DNA of 64,000 nt from Enterobacter asburiae (lineage in GTDB: Bacteria > Pseudomonadota > Gammaproteobacteria > Enterobacterales > Enterobacteriaceae). The stretch is taken from NCBI RefSeq assembly GCF_007035645.1, contig NZ_AP019633.1, positions 1 through 64,000 of the forward strand. Reading direction: 5' to 3'. Below the pieces are notes generated by a model, which was not told where the DNA came from, did not search any database, and saw only the letters and a program-made list of their open reading frames with translations. The position numbers and the translations under genes are program-made. Positions 7,723 to 16,965 of this stretch are shown here, piece by piece. Position 1 is the stretch's first letter, and every line of letters starts with the position of its first letter.

Positions 7723-7798
7723 TCCTTTGACGGATTCCCGCCGTGCAGATCCGAAAATTGTCTGTTCCGGATCTTCTCTCCGGCCCCCGGCGCGCTGC

Positions 7799-9398: not shown

Positions 9399-10187
9399 AT
9401 GATGCCAGCACTGCAAGGCCATACCGGGGCTTTTTCCTCTGCTCAGTTGCCGGTGGCCATCGATTACCCGGCAGCGCTGGCACTGCGCCAGATGGCGCTC
9501 GTTCAGGACGAACTGCCGAAATATCTGCTGGCGCCGGAAGTGAGTGCCCTGCTCCACTATGTACCCGATCTCCACCGCAAGATGTTGCTGGCCACTCTCT
9601 GGAATACCGGCGCGCGCATTAACGAAGCGCTGGCCCTGACACGGAGTGATTTTTCGCTGGCACCGCCCTACCCGTTTGTGCAGCTGGCCACGCTCAAACA
9701 GCGGGCGGAGAAAGCGGCCCGAACGGCCGGCCGTGCTCCGGCCGGTAGCCTGCCTCATCGTATCGTTCCGCTTTCCGATCCGCAGTATGCCCGCCAGCTG
9801 GAGATGATGGTGGCCACCCTGAAAATTCCGCTGGAGCGCCGTAATAAACGCACCGGCAGAACCGAGAAGGCACGCATCTGGGAAATCACCGACAGGACGG
9901 TCCGGACCTGGATAAGTGAAGCCGTTGATGCGGCTGCCGCCGACGGGGTGACGTTTTCGGTGCCGGTCACCCCGCACACGTTCCGGCACAGCTACGGGAT
10001 GCACATGCTGTATGCCGGCATCCCGCTGAAGGTGCTGCAGAGCCTGATGGGTCACAAGTCGCTGAGTTCGACCGAGGTTTACACGAAGGTCTTCGCGCTG
10101 GATGTCGCGGCACGGCACCGGGTTCAGTTTCAGATGCCCGAGGCAGATGCAGTCAGTATGCTGAAGGCTCTGAGCCCGGGACAATAA
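9399..10187 (+). CDS. ResD-like tyrosine recombinase
   Basis: A 262-residue site-specific recombinase with all hallmark residues: Arg73 in GARINEAL, His193 and Arg196 in HTFRHSYG, His219 in MGHKSLSS, and the nucleophile Tyr228 in EVYTKVF. It resembles ResD (D protein) of F and relatives in IncR and IncFIB plasmids, which resolves plasmid multimers at a nearby site. The short core-binding domain fits that group. Immediately downstream lies a series of repeated sites with inverted CTGGACA/TGTCCAG arms that separate small genes, so the enzyme may also shuffle those segments. The start overlaps the stop of a 25-codon frame (9325-9402). Confidence 0.88.
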   Translation: MMPALQGHTGAFSSAQLPVAIDYPAALALRQMALVQDELPKYLLAPEVSALLHYVPDLHRKMLLATLWNTGARINEALALTRSDFSLAPPYPFVQLATLKQRAEKAARTAGRAPAGSLPHRIVPLSDPQYARQLEMMVATLKIPLERRNKRTGRTEKARIWEITDRTVRTWISEAVDAAAADGVTFSVPVTPHTFRHSYGMHMLYAGIPLKVLQSLMGHKSLSSTEVYTKVFALDVAARHRVQFQMPEADAVSMLKALSPGQ

Positions 10188-10288
10188 TCGCTTACTGTCA
10201 TACATAGCATACATGAAGCAAGTACTGAACAGACTCACGGTTACTGTTTCAGGTCAATGAGAATAAATACGATCACCAGAAATATTTT

Positions 10289-10323
10289 CTGGACACTTTT
10301 TCCGATAGTGCCGAAATGTCCAG
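10289..10323 (+). other. Probable primary recombination site beside the recombinase
   Basis: CTGGACA (10289-10295) and TGTCCAG (10317-10323) form perfect 7-bp inverted arms, 101 bp after the recombinase stop. The spacer is 21 bp, unlike the 12-bp spacer of the five downstream cores, so this may be the master or resolution site. Confidence 0.5.
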
Positions 10324-10398
10324 GATGGATAGCATTTTTTGTACATTACTGGGACGTTCTGCTCCCGATGGGGGCATCAAAAACGCCGCTGTGATGTC

Positions 10399-10424
10399 CT
10401 GGACAGAATCACCTGAATGTCTAA
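10399..10424 (+). repeat. Cassette core site A
   Basis: CTGGACA, a 12-bp spacer (GAATCACCTGAA) and TGTCTAA. It is the first of five cores with the same 7-12-7 layout and orientation. It opens the array to the left of the minus-strand gene at 10492-10815 and lacks the long tail with GCCAGCA motifs. Confidence 0.65.
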
Positions 10425-10491
10425 CCGCGCGGGATTAATCCGAGTGGGAATGCAGAACCGACCGGGCTACGCTCCGGCCGGAACAGCAGTT

Positions 10492-10815
10492 CTAGATCTT
10501 GCTCTTACAGTAAGCGATAAGTACCGAGACGGATAAGGGTACTGTTCCGTCTTCCATTGGCCTTGAAGGAATGAATTTTGTTTTTCGAGCAGCATTCGCT
10601 TTAGCTACGTTTCGTTGCTTACTGACCGGGTTAGTAGTTTTTTGGTGGGCTAATTTTTTGAAACTATCAAGCCAATGTGCATATTCATTACCTACAGCTC
10701 CAATCAGTTTTTTTAGATCGGGGTCTGTTGCTCTATTATAAAAATCTTCCATTTTATTCATATGCTGACGAGTTGTTTTCTCTTCATTCAGCGCATCAAG
10801 TACTTCCTGATACAT
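10492..10815 (-). CDS. Cassette gene 1: hypothetical 107-residue protein
   Basis: A largely helical, charged protein (MYQEVLDALNEEKTT at the start, a basic KQRNVAKANAARKTK stretch near residue 70) with no membrane segment. It is encoded on the minus strand between cores A and B, and is AT-rich compared with the flanking repeats. Function not recognised. Confidence 0.55.
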   Translation of the reverse strand: MYQEVLDALNEEKTTRQHMNKMEDFYNRATDPDLKKLIGAVGNEYAHWLDSFKKLAHQKTTNPVSKQRNVAKANAARKTKFIPSRPMEDGTVPLSVSVLIAYCKSKI

Positions 10816-10863
10816 ATCAATCTCCGCTAATTTAAAAAGGTGATTAGAGCATGTTTTTAATAT

Positions 10864-11020
10864 CTGGGCAAAATCACCTGAATGTCTAGCCTGGCGCAGG
10901 GATTACGTATCAGAGAGTATTTGCCAGCAGCTCTGCGACCGCACCGGCGCATCGATGCCGGGTTATGCCAGCAACATTGCCGCTGGCCGCGCAGCTGCTG
11001 CGGACGAAATGCTAGCACGG
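10864..11020 (+). repeat. Cassette site B: core plus 130-bp tail
   Basis: Core CTGGGCA - AAATCACCTGAA - TGTCTAG (10864-10889) is followed by a tail beginning GGATTACGTATCAGAGAG, with GCCAGCA at 10923-10929 and 10967-10973 and a variant GCTAGCA at 11011-11017. The tail is nearly identical to that of site C over about 110 bp. Confidence 0.75.
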
Positions 11021-11083
11021 TAAAGGCTGAACACAGTATAATCCCGGCCTGAACATTGTTATTGAGCAGAGCGGATACTCAGC

Positions 11084-11893
11084 ATGAAACTATACCATTA
11101 TACTGATCTCAATGGACTGAAAGGCATTATCGAAAATGGCTCACTGTGGGCGACTAATCTTTATTTTCTTAATGACAGTCAGGAATTGCTTCACGGCATG
11201 GAATGTATCCGAAAGGCAATCCCATTTATCACAGACAGCCTTCCGAGGGATTACGTAAATTACATTGTCGAGTCAATGAATAAGTATGATCTGAGACAGT
11301 CAAAGAATGCTTATAACATTTCCTTTTGCCTTGAGCCTGAATTGCTGAGCCAGTGGAGAGGTTATGCCAGTTCGCAGGGAGTGTGCCTCCAGTTTGAGAG
11401 CGACGATCTGCTACAGTCTCTTAATTTCGATGATTGCGAGTATGTTTCGAACAAGGTGATATATTGTGAGAAGGGAGAAACCATACAGGCTAAAGAACAA
11501 ATAATTAACTTCTTTAATAGTCTGAAACAGGTGGAGAATGAAGAACACCGGATGCTTTTGGAACCTCTTCATGCTGCAAAATTTGCCAGTACGGTAACAC
11601 CCTTCTTTAAAAATGACCGGTTCATGGAAGAAAAAGAGTTCAGGTTTGTTCTGTATCCCATAAAGGGTGTCCATGAAATTAATTTCCGCGTCGGGAAAAA
11701 TGGCCTGATACCCTATATTGAAATTAAAGCCCATCAGGGAGATAAGTACCGGGGGAGAATGCCGATAGAAAAAGTAATCATCGGTCCTAGTTCTAATTCC
11801 GAGTTAATGCAGAACGGAATCAGAATGCTACTGGATCAGTACAGATACAGGAATACTGAAGTGGAATTATCACAGACTCCATATCGTGGGTAG
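11084..11893 (+). CDS. Cassette gene 2: DUF2971 protein
   Basis: The 269-residue product opens MKLYHYTDLNGLKGIIENG and continues SLWATNLYFLNDSQELLHG, the signature N-terminus of DUF2971 proteins. YNISFCLEPELLSQWRGYA (about 79-97) and FASTVTPFFKNDRFMEEKEF (about 168-187) are also typical. The biochemical role of this family is not established here; it is scattered among accessory regions of bacterial genomes. The gene stands alone between sites B and C, ending 1 bp before the left arm of C. Confidence 0.75.
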   Translation: MKLYHYTDLNGLKGIIENGSLWATNLYFLNDSQELLHGMECIRKAIPFITDSLPRDYVNYIVESMNKYDLRQSKNAYNISFCLEPELLSQWRGYASSQGVCLQFESDDLLQSLNFDDCEYVSNKVIYCEKGETIQAKEQIINFFNSLKQVENEEHRMLLEPLHAAKFASTVTPFFKNDRFMEEKEFRFVLYPIKGVHEINFRVGKNGLIPYIEIKAHQGDKYRGRMPIEKVIIGPSSNSELMQNGIRMLLDQYRYRNTEVELSQTPYRG

Positions 11894-12047
11894 TTGCGCA
11901 GAAACACCTGAATGTCCAGGCTGACGCGGGGATTACGTATCAGAGAGTATTTGCCAGCAGTTCTGCGACCGCACCGGCGCATCGATGCCGGGTTATGCCA
12001 GCAACATTGCCGCTGGCCGCACAGCTGGAGCACACCATTTGCCAGCA
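11894..12047 (+). repeat. Cassette site C: core plus 130-bp tail
   Basis: Core TTGCGCA - GAAACACCTGAA - TGTCCAG (11894-11919). The tail carries GCCAGCA at 11953-11959, 11997-12003 and 12041-12047. It is near-identical to the site B tail up to about 12020, where the two diverge. Confidence 0.75.
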
Positions 12048-12060
12048 CAATATGGGCGTA

Positions 12061-12090
12061 AAAAAACCGACTGGTGAGGTCGGTTTTTTT
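12061..12090. terminator. Bidirectional Rho-independent terminator
   Basis: AAAAAACCGAC (12061-12071) pairs with GTCGGTTTTTTT (12079-12090). The A and T runs flank a clean stem, so it can stop transcripts from either side. It may end an antisense RNA of the DinQ-like module that follows. Confidence 0.75.
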
Positions 12091-12120
12091 ACTTCGGCCT
12101 GAGCAGGAACCCTGACCGGT

Positions 12121-12337
12121 TGAGAACATCATCATCTAACGCTTCAATAATATTACCTTTGGGGTAATTTCTCAAGTATGGGGTAGAAGTCAAAGATACA
12201 CGCTGTATAATCATCGGGTTAGCGCTGTGATATTTTTGCTCCGGAATCGCACATGAACGATTTTAAAGCCCTGATCAGTAGTACAGGTGGTGCTGTTAAC
12301 TGGTGCTCTGGCCGGAGTGAGAACATCATCATCTAAC
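12121..12337 (+). repeat. 20-bp direct repeat framing the DinQ-like leader
   Basis: TGAGAACATCATCATCTAAC occurs at 12121-12140 and again at 12318-12337, 197 bp apart. No protein-coding frame spans the interval convincingly. A -10-like TATAAT lies near 12207-12212. In the E. coli dinQ locus, small RNAs with related sequences (agrA/agrB) sit beside the toxin, so this interval may hold one or two small RNAs. Confidence 0.45.
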
Positions 12338-12410
12338 AATGAGATATGCTTCGCGACAGGCAATGTAAGAGTAAGCGGAGTCTCTCTCGCTCCATTTTAT
12401 GGAGAAACGG

Positions 12411-12506
12411 ATGATTAACCTGTTAATCATCGTTCTGCGGGCTGTAGTCGCGTGTGCGAATGCGCTGATTGCAGTTCTGGAACTGATCCGCGAACTTATC
12501 GACTGA
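12411..12506 (+). CDS. Cassette gene 3: DinQ-like type I toxin peptide (31 aa)
   Basis: The ATG at 12411 follows GGAG (12401-12404) and encodes a 31-residue hydrophobic peptide whose second half, ALIAVLELIRELI, closely matches ALIALLELIRFLL of E. coli DinQ as I remember it. DinQ inserts in the inner membrane and is silenced by an antisense RNA. The gene has a long non-coding leader and a strong terminator (12526-12560), both expected of type I toxin mRNAs. It lies alone between sites C and D. Confidence 0.7.
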   Translation: MINLLIIVLRAVVACANALIAVLELIRELID

Positions 12507-12525
12507 TAAGACCGGAAACGTAACT

Positions 12526-12560
12526 AAGGGCGAAGGGGTAACCACTCTTCGCCCTTTAAT
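12526..12560 (+). terminator. Terminator of the DinQ-like gene
   Basis: AAGGGCGAAG (12526-12535) pairs perfectly with CTTCGCCCTT (12547-12556) and runs into a T/A-rich tail. It lies 20 bp after the peptide stop codon. Confidence 0.8.
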
Positions 12561-12564
12561 ATTT

Positions 12565-12708
12565 ATGGACAGAATTACCTGAACGTCCAGTGTGGTGAGA
12601 GGATTACGTAACAGACAGGGTTTGCCAGCAGTTCAGCGCATCCGGAGAGGAAGGTACGCCAGCATTTTTGAGCATGGCCGCGCAGCTAAAGCTGACGAAA
12701 CGCCAGCA
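12565..12708 (+). repeat. Cassette site D: core plus tail
   Basis: Core ATGGACA - GAATTACCTGAA - CGTCCAG (12565-12590). The diverged tail keeps GGATTACGTA and has GCCAGCA at 12624-12630, 12658-12664 and 12702-12708, so the three-motif arrangement is conserved while the sequence between the motifs differs from B and C. Confidence 0.7.
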
Positions 12709-12720
12709 ATTCTATAGGGA

Positions 12721-12939
12721 TTAAATACGGGAAAGAAGATCATTCAGAAGATGTGGTGGAGGGAGTTGCCCAAAGACAGTATCATGCAGTAATAATTCTT
12801 CCTTTGTTGGATTTAATATGTCCATAAATAAACCAGGGCAAACATTCCATTTTTTTTCAATTACACCAATCCGGTAGCATTCAGTAATTTCATAATGACC
12901 GGTACTTACTTCGGTATAAAAGTGCATGGCTATTTTCAT
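12721..12939 (-). CDS. Cassette gene 4b: hypothetical 72-residue protein
   Basis: Second gene of a minus-strand pair. The 72-residue product begins MKIAMHFYTEVSTGHYEI and has no membrane segment. Its ATG overlaps the stop codon of the preceding gene (TAATG), so translation is coupled. Two small coupled genes in one cassette recall toxin-antitoxin pairs, but neither product matches a family I know. Confidence 0.5.
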   Translation of the reverse strand: MKIAMHFYTEVSTGHYEITECYRIGVIEKKWNVCPGLFMDILNPTKEELLLHDTVFGQLPPPHLLNDLLSRI

Positions 12940-13247
12940 TAATATTTACTTATTTTGCAGGGTGAAGAGTTATGCAACGTGATGGTTACAGGAGTACCTT
13001 TAACGTTCCAGCGAACTCCCCTGTGCCACATGGGTTTCCAGATGTGCCCTGTCACTTTCACATCCGGTGCGCTGGCTACAGCCGCAAATAGTGCGGGGGC
13101 GCTATCGACATCATCAGGGATGAAATTGTGCGACAGCGGAAAATGTTTGTTCATCGTCCGGATGATGGCTGTGAGTGCGTCCTTTGTTCGGGCGCGATGC
13201 GACCATTTACGAGGGCCGTTCGATTCAGTAATAGTAACGGTTATCAT
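12939..13247 (-). CDS. Cassette gene 4a: hypothetical 102-residue protein
   Basis: First gene of the coupled minus-strand pair between sites D and E. The product begins MITVTITESNGPRKWSHRA and contains LTAIIRTMNKHFPLSHNFIP. It is a small, mildly basic soluble protein. Family not recognised. Confidence 0.5.
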   Translation of the reverse strand: MITVTITESNGPRKWSHRARTKDALTAIIRTMNKHFPLSHNFIPDDVDSAPALFAAVASAPDVKVTGHIWKPMWHRGVRWNVKGTPVTITLHNSSPCKISKY

Positions 13248-13298
13248 TAATACCTCACGTCATTCCTTACACTGATTTTATCCGTGATGATCAGCTTC

Positions 13299-13335
13299 TG
13301 CCAGCAGAGCTGGACAAAATTACCTGAGTGTCCAG
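13299..13335 (+). repeat. Cassette core site E
   Basis: GCCAGCA (13299-13305) is followed by the best inverted core of the series, CTGGACA - AAATTACCTGAG - TGTCCAG (13310-13335). The long tail seen in B-D is absent; only a short GACGCGAAG stretch remains. It marks the right end of the recognisable array. Confidence 0.65.
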
Positions 13336-13414
13336 ATCGACGCGAAGAACCCACAAGAGGAAGGCAAAGAGACTTAAGTTGCACAATAGAACAAACACTC
13401 ACAAGGAGTTTTAA

Positions 13415-13516
13415 ATGGTTCTATTACTCGATGCGTTTCTGTCTGCCCCGCTTATGTCTCAATGTGCTGCCACAGTTTTTCTCTTGCTGCTTATATGGCT
13501 AAAAAAGATGGAATGA
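13415..13516 (+). CDS. Cassette gene 5: 33-residue hydrophobic peptide
   Basis: A strong ribosome-binding site (AAGGAG, 13403-13408) precedes ATG 13415. The peptide begins MVLLLDAFLSAP and has a membrane helix (ATVFLLLLIWL) ending in KKME. The size and layout fit a small membrane toxin or regulatory peptide, but no known family is recognised. An inverted repeat (13608-13639, ACCTTCCCGC and GCGGGAAGGT) lies downstream. Confidence 0.5.
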   Translation: MVLLLDAFLSAPLMSQCAATVFLLLLIWLKKME

Positions 13517-13607
13517 GTGACAAACGTCCAATGTATTTTATCTACGCCCCGCCATCACATACTTCGTGGGCGTGAAGTTTTGCTAGGCAGCAGAACAGGA
13601 CGCTATC

Positions 13608-13670: not shown

Positions 13671-14954
13671 TCATTTAATGATATCATGATACAATGATTT
13701 CATTTTCTTGGGTAAAAGCGATTCGATACTGTCTACAGATGTTCGAGTTGCATCCCATGATAACCAACCAGTTTCGCCATAATTTGCGTTGTACCATCTT
13801 TCCTTTACCATCCGATGCTCCTGATAATCAGGAGTATTCATCCCCCATATTTCCACAGGGATAGGTAAATGGTTATCTGTAGAAACATCAGTGAGGCAAA
13901 AGTCCGCGAGATATTCATGAGTGGATGAATCATAACGTAGGGGTTTGTAAAACGATCGCTCCAGCTCGAATAGCTTTTGTTCAAACGCCCCTTCATTCAA
14001 TGAATCAAGCGGTATGTAGCGATCACTTACCATCATCAGGGCCAGCTGTCTCACCTGGGCTGATTTTGCGCCAGGAACATCCGTAACAGCTATTACAAAT
14101 ACCTTCATACCTTTTATCCAGCCATTCACCGCAATTGGAAATCTGTCTAACGCAGACTTCCATCTGGCATCATCAAGTCCCAGAAAAGGCATGCCGGAAA
14201 AGTCACGTACAGGAAGTCGATTTAATCCATCCATGTAACTTTCAGAGAACTTTGCAAGCTCAGCAATAACTACAAGACGTTGTTTATTAACTTTCGCACG
14301 TTCGACAGTCATGCTGTTTCTTCTGCTATCGCTGGAGTTCGTGTAGGCCGGAGTGAGCAGAACGTCAGATAACTTTGTTTTGCCTGCTTCTATCTTTTCT
14401 GCCTGCTTAAACAAGTGATAACCCAGTTTGGTGGATGAACGCATACCGTCCATTTTAGGTACCCATGTGTTATAGCTGGTTGTCTCCCAGAGAAAATGTA
14501 GAAGACCAAGAATAGAAACAGTGTCGCGTTTATTGTTCCGTGAAGCATCACCAGAACGCAGAGAACTATCTATGGGTGTTGACGGACCGGTTACCTGCAA
14601 CGGGTAATCAAGCTTAATATTGATTGTTCCATCCGGCTTCTCTTTCAATGCGTCCTGTGTATAACACCCCTGCGGCCCTTCAGGACTGAGGCTACTATAG
14701 AATCTGCAGTCCTCTCTGTGTTTTATACCCGTGAGTGGGAATCGAGCTAAATGATGTTTCTCCACTCTGAGCCTCACAGAGAGTGGCAATTCTTTACCCG
14801 TACATAAGCAAGCGGCATATGAATTACAGTCTCGCGACTTTTTAAGAGCCACCTGGAACGGTGTCGTATTCGATGAATCATCCTGCCTGTCGCCACCAAA
14901 ATAAGCAGGCGCAGAGTTATCTCCAAAGTAGATTTTCAATGTGTACTGTTTCAT
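13671..14954 (-). CDS. DUF1173 family protein
   Basis: A 427-residue protein. CLCTGKELPLSV (about 50-61) with a later EDCRFY (about 82-87) gives the Cys pattern of DUF1173. LLHFLWETTSYNTWVPKM (about 149-166) and LSDVLLTPAY (about 195-204) match the family core. These plasmid-borne proteins have no established function. Its upstream region is shared with parA, which is divergent, and contains the same ATGAAATCATGATTT-like motifs, so both genes may answer to the same regulator. Confidence 0.7.
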   Translation of the reverse strand: MKQYTLKIYFGDNSAPAYFGGDRQDDSSNTTPFQVALKKSRDCNSYAACLCTGKELPLSVRLRVEKHHLARFPLTGIKHREDCRFYSSLSPEGPQGCYTQDALKEKPDGTINIKLDYPLQVTGPSTPIDSSLRSGDASRNNKRDTVSILGLLHFLWETTSYNTWVPKMDGMRSSTKLGYHLFKQAEKIEAGKTKLSDVLLTPAYTNSSDSRRNSMTVERAKVNKQRLVVIAELAKFSESYMDGLNRLPVRDFSGMPFLGLDDARWKSALDRFPIAVNGWIKGMKVFVIAVTDVPGAKSAQVRQLALMMVSDRYIPLDSLNEGAFEQKLFELERSFYKPLRYDSSTHEYLADFCLTDVSTDNHLPIPVEIWGMNTPDYQEHRMVKERWYNANYGETGWLSWDATRTSVDSIESLLPKKMKSLYHDIIK

Positions 14955-15145: not shown

Positions 15146-15160
15146 ATGAAGGTGGTATAT

Positions 15161-15787
15161 ATGGGAAAGGTTATATCGATCGTTGGTCAGAAAGGCGGAG
15201 GTTCAAAAAGTACCAAAGCCAGAACACTTGCTGTTGGGTTTACTGAAGCTGGATGGAAGACTCATCTGGCGGACATAGACACGAAGCAACAAACCTCTCT
15301 GAAGTGGACAGAACGACGCGAGAACAATGGTCTAAGCCAAATTGACTGCGCTCTTTACCGCCGGGTAGATACAGCTGTCAAAATGAAAGATAGCTGCCAT
15401 TTGCTTATCATCGATGGTCGTCCTGCAGCAGAGACAACATCACTGGATGTGGCTGATGAATCTGATCTCGTTATCATAACCACTGGGACCACAATTGATG
15501 ATCTGGAACCCTCTCTGGAACTTGCCCGCGAATTGATTAAAAAGGGCATTGAGAAAAGCAAAATCGTATTCATTGTCGCAAAGTCACCATCTCAGTCACA
15601 GGGCGAAAAAGCTCAGGAGACTATCAAGGCGTGGGGCTTCAAAGTTCTCAATACAATCATTCCATTCAAAACCAGTTACGGTGAGGCTCTGGATGCGGGG
15701 CGTGCCCTCCATGAAACTCCTTTCAAATCCTTAAACGAAACAGCAAAACAAATGATCGAAGAAATTCATGATATCATTAATTCATGA
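15161..15787 (+). CDS. parA: ParA partition ATPase (IncR-type locus)
   Basis: The start at 15161 follows GAAGGTGG; a more upstream ATG (15146) lies inside that site. The 208-residue product is a small ParA without a DNA-binding N-terminus. It has the deviant Walker A box KGGGSKST (residues 11-18) and a Walker-A'-like LLIIDGRPA near residue 85. It should position the plasmid by ATP-driven nucleoid binding with the ribbon-helix-helix protein encoded next. The gene is low in GC like its neighbours DUF1173 and repB, and differs from the leading region. Confidence 0.88.
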   Translation: MGKVISIVGQKGGGSKSTKARTLAVGFTEAGWKTHLADIDTKQQTSLKWTERRENNGLSQIDCALYRRVDTAVKMKDSCHLLIIDGRPAAETTSLDVADESDLVIITTGTTIDDLEPSLELARELIKKGIEKSKIVFIVAKSPSQSQGEKAQETIKAWGFKVLNTIIPFKTSYGEALDAGRALHETPFKSLNETAKQMIEEIHDIINS

Positions 15788-15831
15788 TAGCATGATTTAA
15801 AGATTTCATTATTTTGGATATGAGGAGTTCT

Positions 15832-16059
15832 ATGAAAGCCCCAGGAAAATCAATAAAACTTGCGCCTCCTAAGGAGGATGAGCCAACTCTGGATGTTACC
15901 GGAAAGGGAGCTGCGCCGGATTCGTCGGTTAAACCTATCCAAATCAAAGTGCCGGTATCTAAGCATAAAGAGATGAAAGCTTACGCGGCAGAACAGGGAA
16001 TATCGATGACAGATATGCTCCTTGCAGGATATGAAATGTATCGCAATAAAATGAAATGA
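15832..16059 (+). CDS. Ribbon-helix-helix partition partner of ParA
   Basis: ATG 15832 has the ribosome-binding site GAGGAG 4-9 bp upstream; an upstream ATG (15814) has none. The product has 75 residues: an unstructured Pro/Lys/Asp-rich N-terminus and a C-terminal RHH-like fold (IQIKVPVSKHKEMKAYAAEQ, then ISMTDMLLAGYEMY). The layout matches small partition partners such as ParG-type proteins, which bind the centromere and repress the operon. Its stop codon lies within an 18-bp perfect palindrome (16059-16076). Confidence 0.75.
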   Translation: MKAPGKSIKLAPPKEDEPTLDVTGKGAAPDSSVKPIQIKVPVSKHKEMKAYAAEQGISMTDMLLAGYEMYRNKMK

Positions 16060-16207: not shown

Positions 16208-16255
16208 GCATGAAAGCATGAAAGCATGAAAGCATGACTTCATGCTTTTTTTTAT
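16208..16255. repeat. Short GCATGAAA repeats and terminator-like hairpin
   Basis: Three tandem GCATGAAA units start at 16208. The last one leads into AAAGCATGA CT TCATGCTTT followed by a T run (about 16230-16253), a good Rho-independent terminator for plus-strand transcripts from the parA operon. Confidence 0.6.
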
Positions 16256-16366
16256 GGCTGCTACAGATTTTCTTATCTAGTCATATCTCTTTGCCGCACA
16301 GCTGGGACTCAAGATTAATCTTTGCAGACTCCGGCCGCAGATCATTCAGCCATAGAATCGGTGTTC

Positions 16367-16965
16367 TATGGGAAACAGGTCAACTTTGTAGCCCCCCGGA
16401 ATATGGGAAACAGGTCAACTACACAGACATCCCGGAATATGGGAAACAGGTCAACTACACAGACACCCCGGAATATGGGAAACAGGTCAACTTCACAGAC
16501 ATCCCGGACTATGGGAAACAGGTCAACTTTGCGGACGGCCCGTAATGTGGGAAACAGGTCAACTTCGCAGACGGCCCGGACTGTGGGAAGCAGGTCAACT
16601 TCGCAGACGGCCCGGACTGTGGGAAACACATCAACTTCGCAGGCGGCACGAACTGTGGGAAACAGGTCAACTTCGCAGATGGCCCGTATTGTGGGAAACA
16701 GGTCAACTTCGCAGACGGCCCGGACTGTGGGAAACACATCAACTTCGCAAACGGCACGAACCGTGGGAAACAGGTCAACTTTATGGCCAGCAGGGAGTGT
16801 GGGAAACACGTCAACTTCGCGGACAGTCATGACTGTGGGAAACAGGTCAACTTAATAACTGGCCGGGACTGTGGGAAAGAAGTCAACTTAGAGGGCAGCC
16901 CGAACAGTGGGAAACAGGTCAAGTTCGGCATGTAATGTGGGAAATACAGCAAGTTTAGTATCCCC
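16367..16965 (+). other. Iteron array of the IncR-like replicon (17 copies)
   Basis: Seventeen copies of a unit built on TGTGGGAAACAGGTCAACTT follow each other every 35-37 bp. Copies 1-5 begin TATGGG and later ones TGTGGG; the last (around 16938) is degenerate. Iterons bind the replication initiator, open the origin and set copy number by handcuffing. A reversed, near-perfect copy lies in the repB promoter (17861-17881), linking this array to repB. The high count should give strict copy control. Confidence 0.85.

Follow-up and report, generated by a model that had tools for sequence, protein, structure and literature searches.

Small gene units are gathered and exchanged on bacterial replicons by several described systems. 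In integrons, a leader site is followed by small mobile cassettes bounded by repeats in one orientation, and the cassette genes mostly have one orientation relative to the site. The p-dif modules of Acinetobacter plasmids carry toxin-antitoxin cargo, and on IncX plasmids the interval between the resolvase gene and topB is the usual cargo (genetic load) region. According to the accessible parts of PMC6449649 and PMC13141974, the p-dif modules are small and are shuffled by a site-specific system. The genetic load of IncX plasmids is described as insertion sequence and transposon inserts in the available portions of PMC3402527 and PMC6158458, which contain no mention of a repeated core or leader, and the fusion site of the F plasmid, rfsF, is given in an excerpt of PMC8299605 as AGATCCGNAA-N8-TTNCGGATCT. 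Here we address an array of five small gene units on a plasmid of Enterobacter asburiae, within a stretch of 64,000 nucleotides (NZ_AP019633.1, positions 1 to 64,000 of the forward strand), which is called the window. The array starts about 210 bp past resD, a gene for a tyrosine recombinase of 262 residues (9399–10187, plus strand; PF00589, 65.5 bits).

The units are bounded by five copies of a 26-bp core with the consensus CTGGACAGAATNACCTGAATGTCCAG, directly repeated on the plus strand at 10399–10424, 10864–10889, 11894–11919, 12565–12590 and 13310–13335. They were recovered as one de novo repeat family and by a weight matrix trained on the window cores plus related sites; at the same threshold the matrix has no match in 1.17 Mb of base-shuffled sequence. 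Allowing up to 3 mismatches, a search of 295 Enterobacteriaceae genomes with the consensus gave 36 places, spread over 18 genomes and including the five of the window; the reversed control gave 2. The original prediction, made from the window alone, had named these five cores, their single orientation and the contents of the units, all of which were recovered; the leader site A, the rfsF site and a possible half-core remnant, all described below, were not part of it. The first unit carries a minus-strand gene of 107 residues (10492–10815), and the second a plus-strand DUF2971 gene (PF11185, 11084–11893) whose stop codon abuts core 3. The third carries the DqlB type I toxin, of 35 residues (12399–12506, plus strand; NF041473, E 1.6e-18). 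The fourth is a pair of minus-strand genes, the first of 102 residues (12939–13247) and the second of 72 (12721–12939); like the 107-residue protein, both are open reading frame (ORF) calls without a match in the Pfam and family-model scans. The last is a plus-strand ORF of 33 residues (13415–13516) in a stretch also present at three other loci, labelled L089, L008 and L004 in our set; this unit recurs at L089:10843 behind a different upstream. Units 2 to 4 have 78–163 nt 3' of the core in common, carrying TGCCAGCA motifs. Past the last unit, CGTCCAA at 13525–13531 (plus strand, read by eye) is a possible right half-core remnant closing the array; in L008, the stretch in common with the window is followed, about 20 bp past its end, by a full core. 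A duplicated GAACATCATCATCTAAC stretch (12113–12140 and 12310–12337) lies upstream of dqlB and is perhaps part of an RNA antitoxin region.

The core is widespread on plasmids, and the order of the units between its copies is variable. A BLAST search of the plasmid collection with the core, at the loose E-value limit of 10, returned 1191 records. Arrays of 11 cores in one direction were found on an IncX4 plasmid (L054), of 8 on an IncX1 plasmid (L111), of 6 on an Enterobacter F-type plasmid (L089) and of 5 on F-type E. coli plasmids of 131–134 kb (L122–L124), and three stretches of viral contigs hold an exact core. When 29 chosen loci were each oriented by the majority of their cores, 119 cores had that direction and one borderline match the opposite one. 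The 90 units between cores, with a median of 588 bp, fall into 55 types, and 12 types are present in more than one unit, one of them (c7) being confined to three near-identical plasmids. Type c0 has five left contexts (c19, c21, c6, c1 and the leader), c1 is preceded by c28, c8, c3 or c40, and c2 by c5, c1 or c0. When one IncX4 array was used as the query, 3148 plasmid records matched partly, and at least 80% of it was held by 2, including the query's own record. In the best-covered plasmid match of the window (L004, pRHBSTW-00309_3), the last cassette and the 3' flank are common with the window at 96%, and one GIY-YIG unit stands in place of the four other units. Such differing cargo between cores agrees with the predicted platform for the capture and shuffling of small genes, stability and defence genes included; rather than a fixed order in the relatives, the unit order varies between plasmids.

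The change of neighbours appears to take place within the core itself. In pairwise alignments, 28 of 125 homology ends lie within 25 bp of the core centre in both partners, often at an equal offset inside the core. A descriptive comparison was made of 62 strict core pairs in which one flank is shared and the other is different. Core bases 1–10 have 17 mismatches in 320 for pairs sharing the upstream flank and 70 in 300 for those sharing the downstream one (background 21%), and bases 15–26 have 72 in 384 and 8 in 360, respectively (background 22%). Comparison thus shows that, as read from these alignments, bases 1–10 mostly travel with the upstream neighbour and bases 15–26 with the downstream unit, the switch lying inside the core. 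With one effective observation for each of 24 families (12 upstream, 12 downstream), the best crossover window comprises bases 8–14 (log-likelihood −204.8), against −211.5 for an even spread. The 2-bp central overlap typical of serine recombinases gave the poorest fit among the windows printed (−227.9) and was rejected. A crossover window several bases wide fits a tyrosine recombinase better than a serine recombinase.

A single leader stands at the head of the array. In the window, a leader block at 10215–10349 (plus strand) is 85–86% identical, in pairwise comparison, to those of arrays linked to serine resolvases (L089, L095, L102). It contains site A (10290–10322, plus strand), which reads TGGACA-21 nt-TGTCCA and is present in a single copy 76 bp before core 1. 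The general form is 33 bp, TGGACA-21 nt-YGTCCA, with a conserved spacer and, in most, a conserved CGATC block upstream. Among the 28 loci with more than one core, 22 carry site A ahead of the first core, in one copy each and on the core strand, at a gap of 65–143 bp in 21 loci and 982 bp in one (L098). A strict scan finds it in 17 of 38 loci, with a spacer of 21 nt in 16 of these and of 20 nt in the remaining one. The first core is distant in L090 and L131 (771 and 877 bp from site A, start to start), and L161 has a second site A match, with 4 mismatches, on the opposite strand. A 76-bp query around site A matches 1034 places in 1024 plasmid records, at least 80% of the query being covered at one place in 925 records. 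Of 5426 complete E. coli genomes, 413 match the IncX-type leader query and 163 the window-type query, and almost all of the matches are plasmid-borne (439 of 443 and 165 of 169 places); the two sets of genomes may overlap. The window-type site A pattern was also run against 394 genomes of the order, among which are members of the family, and has two matches there, the window and one with 3 mismatches; being stricter than the IncX leader, it may miss others.

Some further observations concern leaders and single cores. In the F-type E. coli plasmids L122–L124, the gap between site A and the first core is 130 bp, which is the IncX spacing, as if their leader and array had moved together. Beside a TyrX gene (described below) at L131:2578, 176 bp after site A, there is a core-like site with near-perfect arms and another centre (CTGGACAGAA-ACACGC-TTCTGTCCAA), which suggests that core centres can diverge. 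At L094:9015, site A stands with five cores, and no neighbouring gene was recognised as a recombinase; the chromosome of this genome (L109, C1 near 2296107) has two core-like matches and no site A. In seven IncX-type loci, a sequence resembling the Tus/Ter consensus begins 22 bp before the first core (L054:10780, L055:8129, L088:9324, L111:13124, L112:17979, L114:11074, L116:13978). The array may for that reason sit at a replication terminus in these plasmids; no such sequence was found near the array of the window.

Taken together, the cores bounding small gene units, the recurrence of units with different neighbours, the switch of homology inside the core and the single leader make a site-specific cassette system highly probable. 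We give a probability of about 0.7 to the reading that the cassettes of this plasmid array are moved by site-specific recombination. A tyrosine recombinase would pair two cores, excise the cassette, probably as a circle, and insert it at another core; selection may then retain cassettes because phage-defence and addiction genes are aboard.

The likeness to integrons lies in the layout, with a leader site and then small mobile cassettes between repeats of one orientation, and in the candidate tyrosine recombinase. The layout had been recognised in the original prediction, down to the genes pointing both ways. Site A is attI-like in position, a comparison drawn from its place at the head of the array. 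The array works like an integron, but it is not one by three tested features. There is no IntI-type integrase, as ResD (57.4 bits) and the IncX enzyme TyrX (54.1 bits) score far below the cut-off of 265 for the integron-integrase model TIGR02249. Unlike the folding attC, the core is short and mirror-armed, with no significant single-strand fold on 12 strands over six core sites (z −1.24 to +1.29), and attC-like folding was rejected. The genes are in both orientations, the longest ORF of at least 60 residues lying on the plus strand in 20 and on the minus strand in 28 of 48 types (of the 55, by mechanical ORF calls). The p-dif modules are similarly small and shuffled, but the present array has another core sequence, cores in one direction (119:1) and a leader. 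Finally, the IncX arrays in L054, L088, L111, L112 and L125–L127 lie between the resolvase and topB, which is the genetic load region of these plasmids.

The most plausible enzyme for the array belongs to the clade of TyrX, a tyrosine recombinase of 271 residues on IncX plasmids, which is 47% identical to the ResD of the window over 232 residues. Its sequence matches six solved structures, of XerC, XerD, XerA and IntI4-type recombinases and an integrase. A search for TyrX relatives found a match in 67 of 392 genomes; among the best 30 loci, site A and the core accompany all five TyrX-clade genes and 2 of the 25 others, one of which is this window. If the loci are independent, the chance of this contrast is about 1.5e-4 (computed by hand), two of the five TyrX-clade genomes having also surfaced in the core search. 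Across the 83 rows of a tree, 14 of 14 in the TyrX clade and 5 of 69 others have site A nearby; 9 of the 14 had been fetched because of their arrays, the window is counted twice among the 5, and the tree program warned of long branches, that of the most divergent TyrX row included. It is slightly short of an even chance that a TyrX-clade recombinase of the ResD family serves the array, working in cis on IncX-type plasmids, where a site A lies next to its gene, and in trans on plasmids like the present one. A second tyrosine recombinase gene is encoded outside the window on the same plasmid (C2:75268–76386, an ORF of 372 residues), and the core pattern search places no core near it.

Several findings weigh against this account of the array and its enzyme. 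Site A is found beside ResD (the window, L005) and TyrX (L054, L088, L112, L115, L116), but also beside serine resolvases (L055, L089, L095, L101, L102), and site A and the core together adjoin SerX1, SerEh, another serine resolvase or no recognised recombinase. The leader of the window is nearer to that of a SerEh plasmid than to those of TyrX plasmids; it shares 135 bp at 86% with the serine-linked L089, the 33-bp site A being identical. Likewise, the leaders of IncX1 plasmids (next to a serine resolvase) and IncX4 plasmids (next to TyrX) can be aligned over a stretch that begins about 320 bp ahead of the core and runs to the end of the core. The leader sequence does not track the neighbouring recombinase, so that an enzyme independent of the neighbour is likely, and most F-type arrays would then have to be explained by TyrX acting in trans. 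TyrX is matched by 252 plasmid records at E up to 1e-60, a smaller number than for site A, so that most arrays would rely on TyrX supplied in trans. With the limit set at E 1e-20, ResD is the sole TyrX match in this genome, and ResD, rather than a TyrX-clade gene, lies beside site A and the core in the window. The array of the window would therefore be enzyme-less, and it looks like an outpost of a wider cassette system. Site A was not found in 6 of the 28 multi-core loci (L047, L087, L092, L106, L107, L109). The other 97 of the 125 homology ends are not within 25 bp of the core in both partners, many of them being ends of shared backbone or leader. The strict core pairs are not mutually independent, which makes their mismatch comparison descriptive. 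The best crossover window, at bases 8–14, lies left of the dyad centre at 13.5, and a tyrosine site of the 10-6-10 form would be expected to cross over in the symmetric 6-bp centre (bases 11–16), for which the fit (log-likelihood −213.5) is poorer than for an even spread. No excised circle and no empty-site pair was seen among the sequences, and the role of the enzyme is our inference from them.

All arrays may instead be served by a dedicated recombinase that has so far escaped notice and belongs to another family or lies on another replicon. No single enzyme was found beside all of them, which favours such a recombinase; on the other side, site A is near every TyrX-clade row, and both recombinase families were searched in ten genomes, among the matches listed, although this last is a weak point. 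We consider this explanation rather unlikely.

It is distinctly unlikely that the host XerC/XerD moves the cassettes as in the p-dif modules, making a plasmid enzyme unnecessary. A host-wide enzyme would fit arrays beside several resolvase types, and, compared by eye with E. coli dif, the core can be fitted to the 11-6-11 frame of a 28-bp XerC/XerD site with about half of the arm bases equal. However, the two arms are mirror images (TGGACA/TGTCCA), as would suit a single protein better than the pair of XerC and XerD, and the core lacks the XerD box, TTATGTTAAAT. The cores also point one way, in contrast to the C and D kinds of dif modules described in the accessible text of PMC13141974.

Recombination dependent on RecA at short repeats might also reshuffle these regions, the core then being a regulatory or structural element. 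A 26-bp repeat is about the minimum length for homologous exchange. Longer blocks (leader and backbone) are exchanged as well, and the gain of the localised crossover model over the even one is moderate, with the symmetric window fitting worse than either. Against this, the linkage of the core bases to their flanks shifts sharply inside the core, the best localised window beats the even spread, and one-way cores, genes in both directions and a single leader fit site-specific recombination better. Exchange by RecA is accordingly judged improbable.

As for ResD, a 28-bp rfsF with 10-bp arms and an 8-bp spacer lies intact at 7747–7774 (plus strand), 1.6 kb from resD, and matches exactly the pattern printed in the excerpt of PMC8299605. 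This pattern, with up to 5 mismatches, occurs in the window there and at four weak places, none of them at a core. TyrX is a relative of ResD and both lie in plasmid stability regions, but the ResD system has one site, of another sequence and elsewhere in the window, and not an array of cores. The ResD search of genome contigs returned 44 loci, and at the threshold used a core is present in 3 of them (L014, L037, L047), several kb off in two; among the 68 rows nearest to ResD, 63 lack site A within 1.7 kb. In the 22 kb read of R64, ResD and rfsF are present and the core and site A are absent, and arrays without ResD are present in the stretches read of L054, L055, L089 and L111. That the neighbouring ResD itself works the array, as the original prediction supposed and as its place just before the array, repeated in L005, might suggest, is very improbable on these grounds, the cores also lying beside serine resolvases and the IncX tyrosine recombinase. 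The repeats do occur without that recombinase, which counts against ResD as the enzyme and not against the array. In the window, ResD most likely just resolves plasmid dimers at rfsF and is probably a bystander to the array.

The cassette cargo includes phage-defence and toxin-antitoxin genes. Among 40 hand-chosen cassette ORFs, 14 score above the curated Pfam cut-off and 26 below, the families being Abi_2 (three), DpnII-MboI nuclease (two), HigB, ToxN, RelB, FRG, AAA_15, IstB, GrpB, DUF2971 and DUF7301. Ten larger cassette ORFs, also chosen, were scanned with PADLOC, and 8 match at 1e-5 or better, including AbiD, AbiQ, PD-T4-4_A (E 2.9e-260), PDC-S15 and PDC-M68. The DrmD match is probably a generic one to an IstB-like ATPase, and the DUF2971 protein of the window and one other of the ten have no PADLOC match. 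PD-T4-4 is one of the systems obtained by functional selection, according to the part available of PMC9519451. A relative of the DUF2971 protein, 43% identical and of equal length, lies between two cores on a 4.9-Mb contig of another genome.

In the accessible open-access literature, among the matches listed, no account of the core, site A or the array was found, most subscription papers being outside this scope. A literature query with the letters of the core gave no title on a plasmid topic; one match was a phage genome note. The array looks like an unrecognised cousin of the integron. More tentatively still than for the enzyme, it may be an independently evolved integron analogue, in which TyrX, an attI-like leader and double-stranded mirror-armed sites would serve a common pool of anti-phage and addiction cassettes on IncX, F-type and other enterobacterial plasmids, most of these having just the leader and array, with the enzyme borrowed in trans. 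If this is true, a second cassette-exchange system exists beside integrons on enterobacterial plasmids, clinical types included, and trades phage-defence and toxin-antitoxin genes. It would help to explain the strong variation of the cargo regions of IncX plasmids, the core and site A would offer a simple sequence handle for finding new defence genes by position, and the recombination of cores by TyrX would become directly testable.

On the 3' side of the array, the window carries a DUF1173 gene (13671–14954) and a ParA gene followed by a small ORF (15146–16059). The DUF1173 and ParA genes are also present in L004. Further along, a long run of near-identical short repeats precedes repE (16234–16950); it was noticed by eye in the translations and perhaps represents replication iterons.

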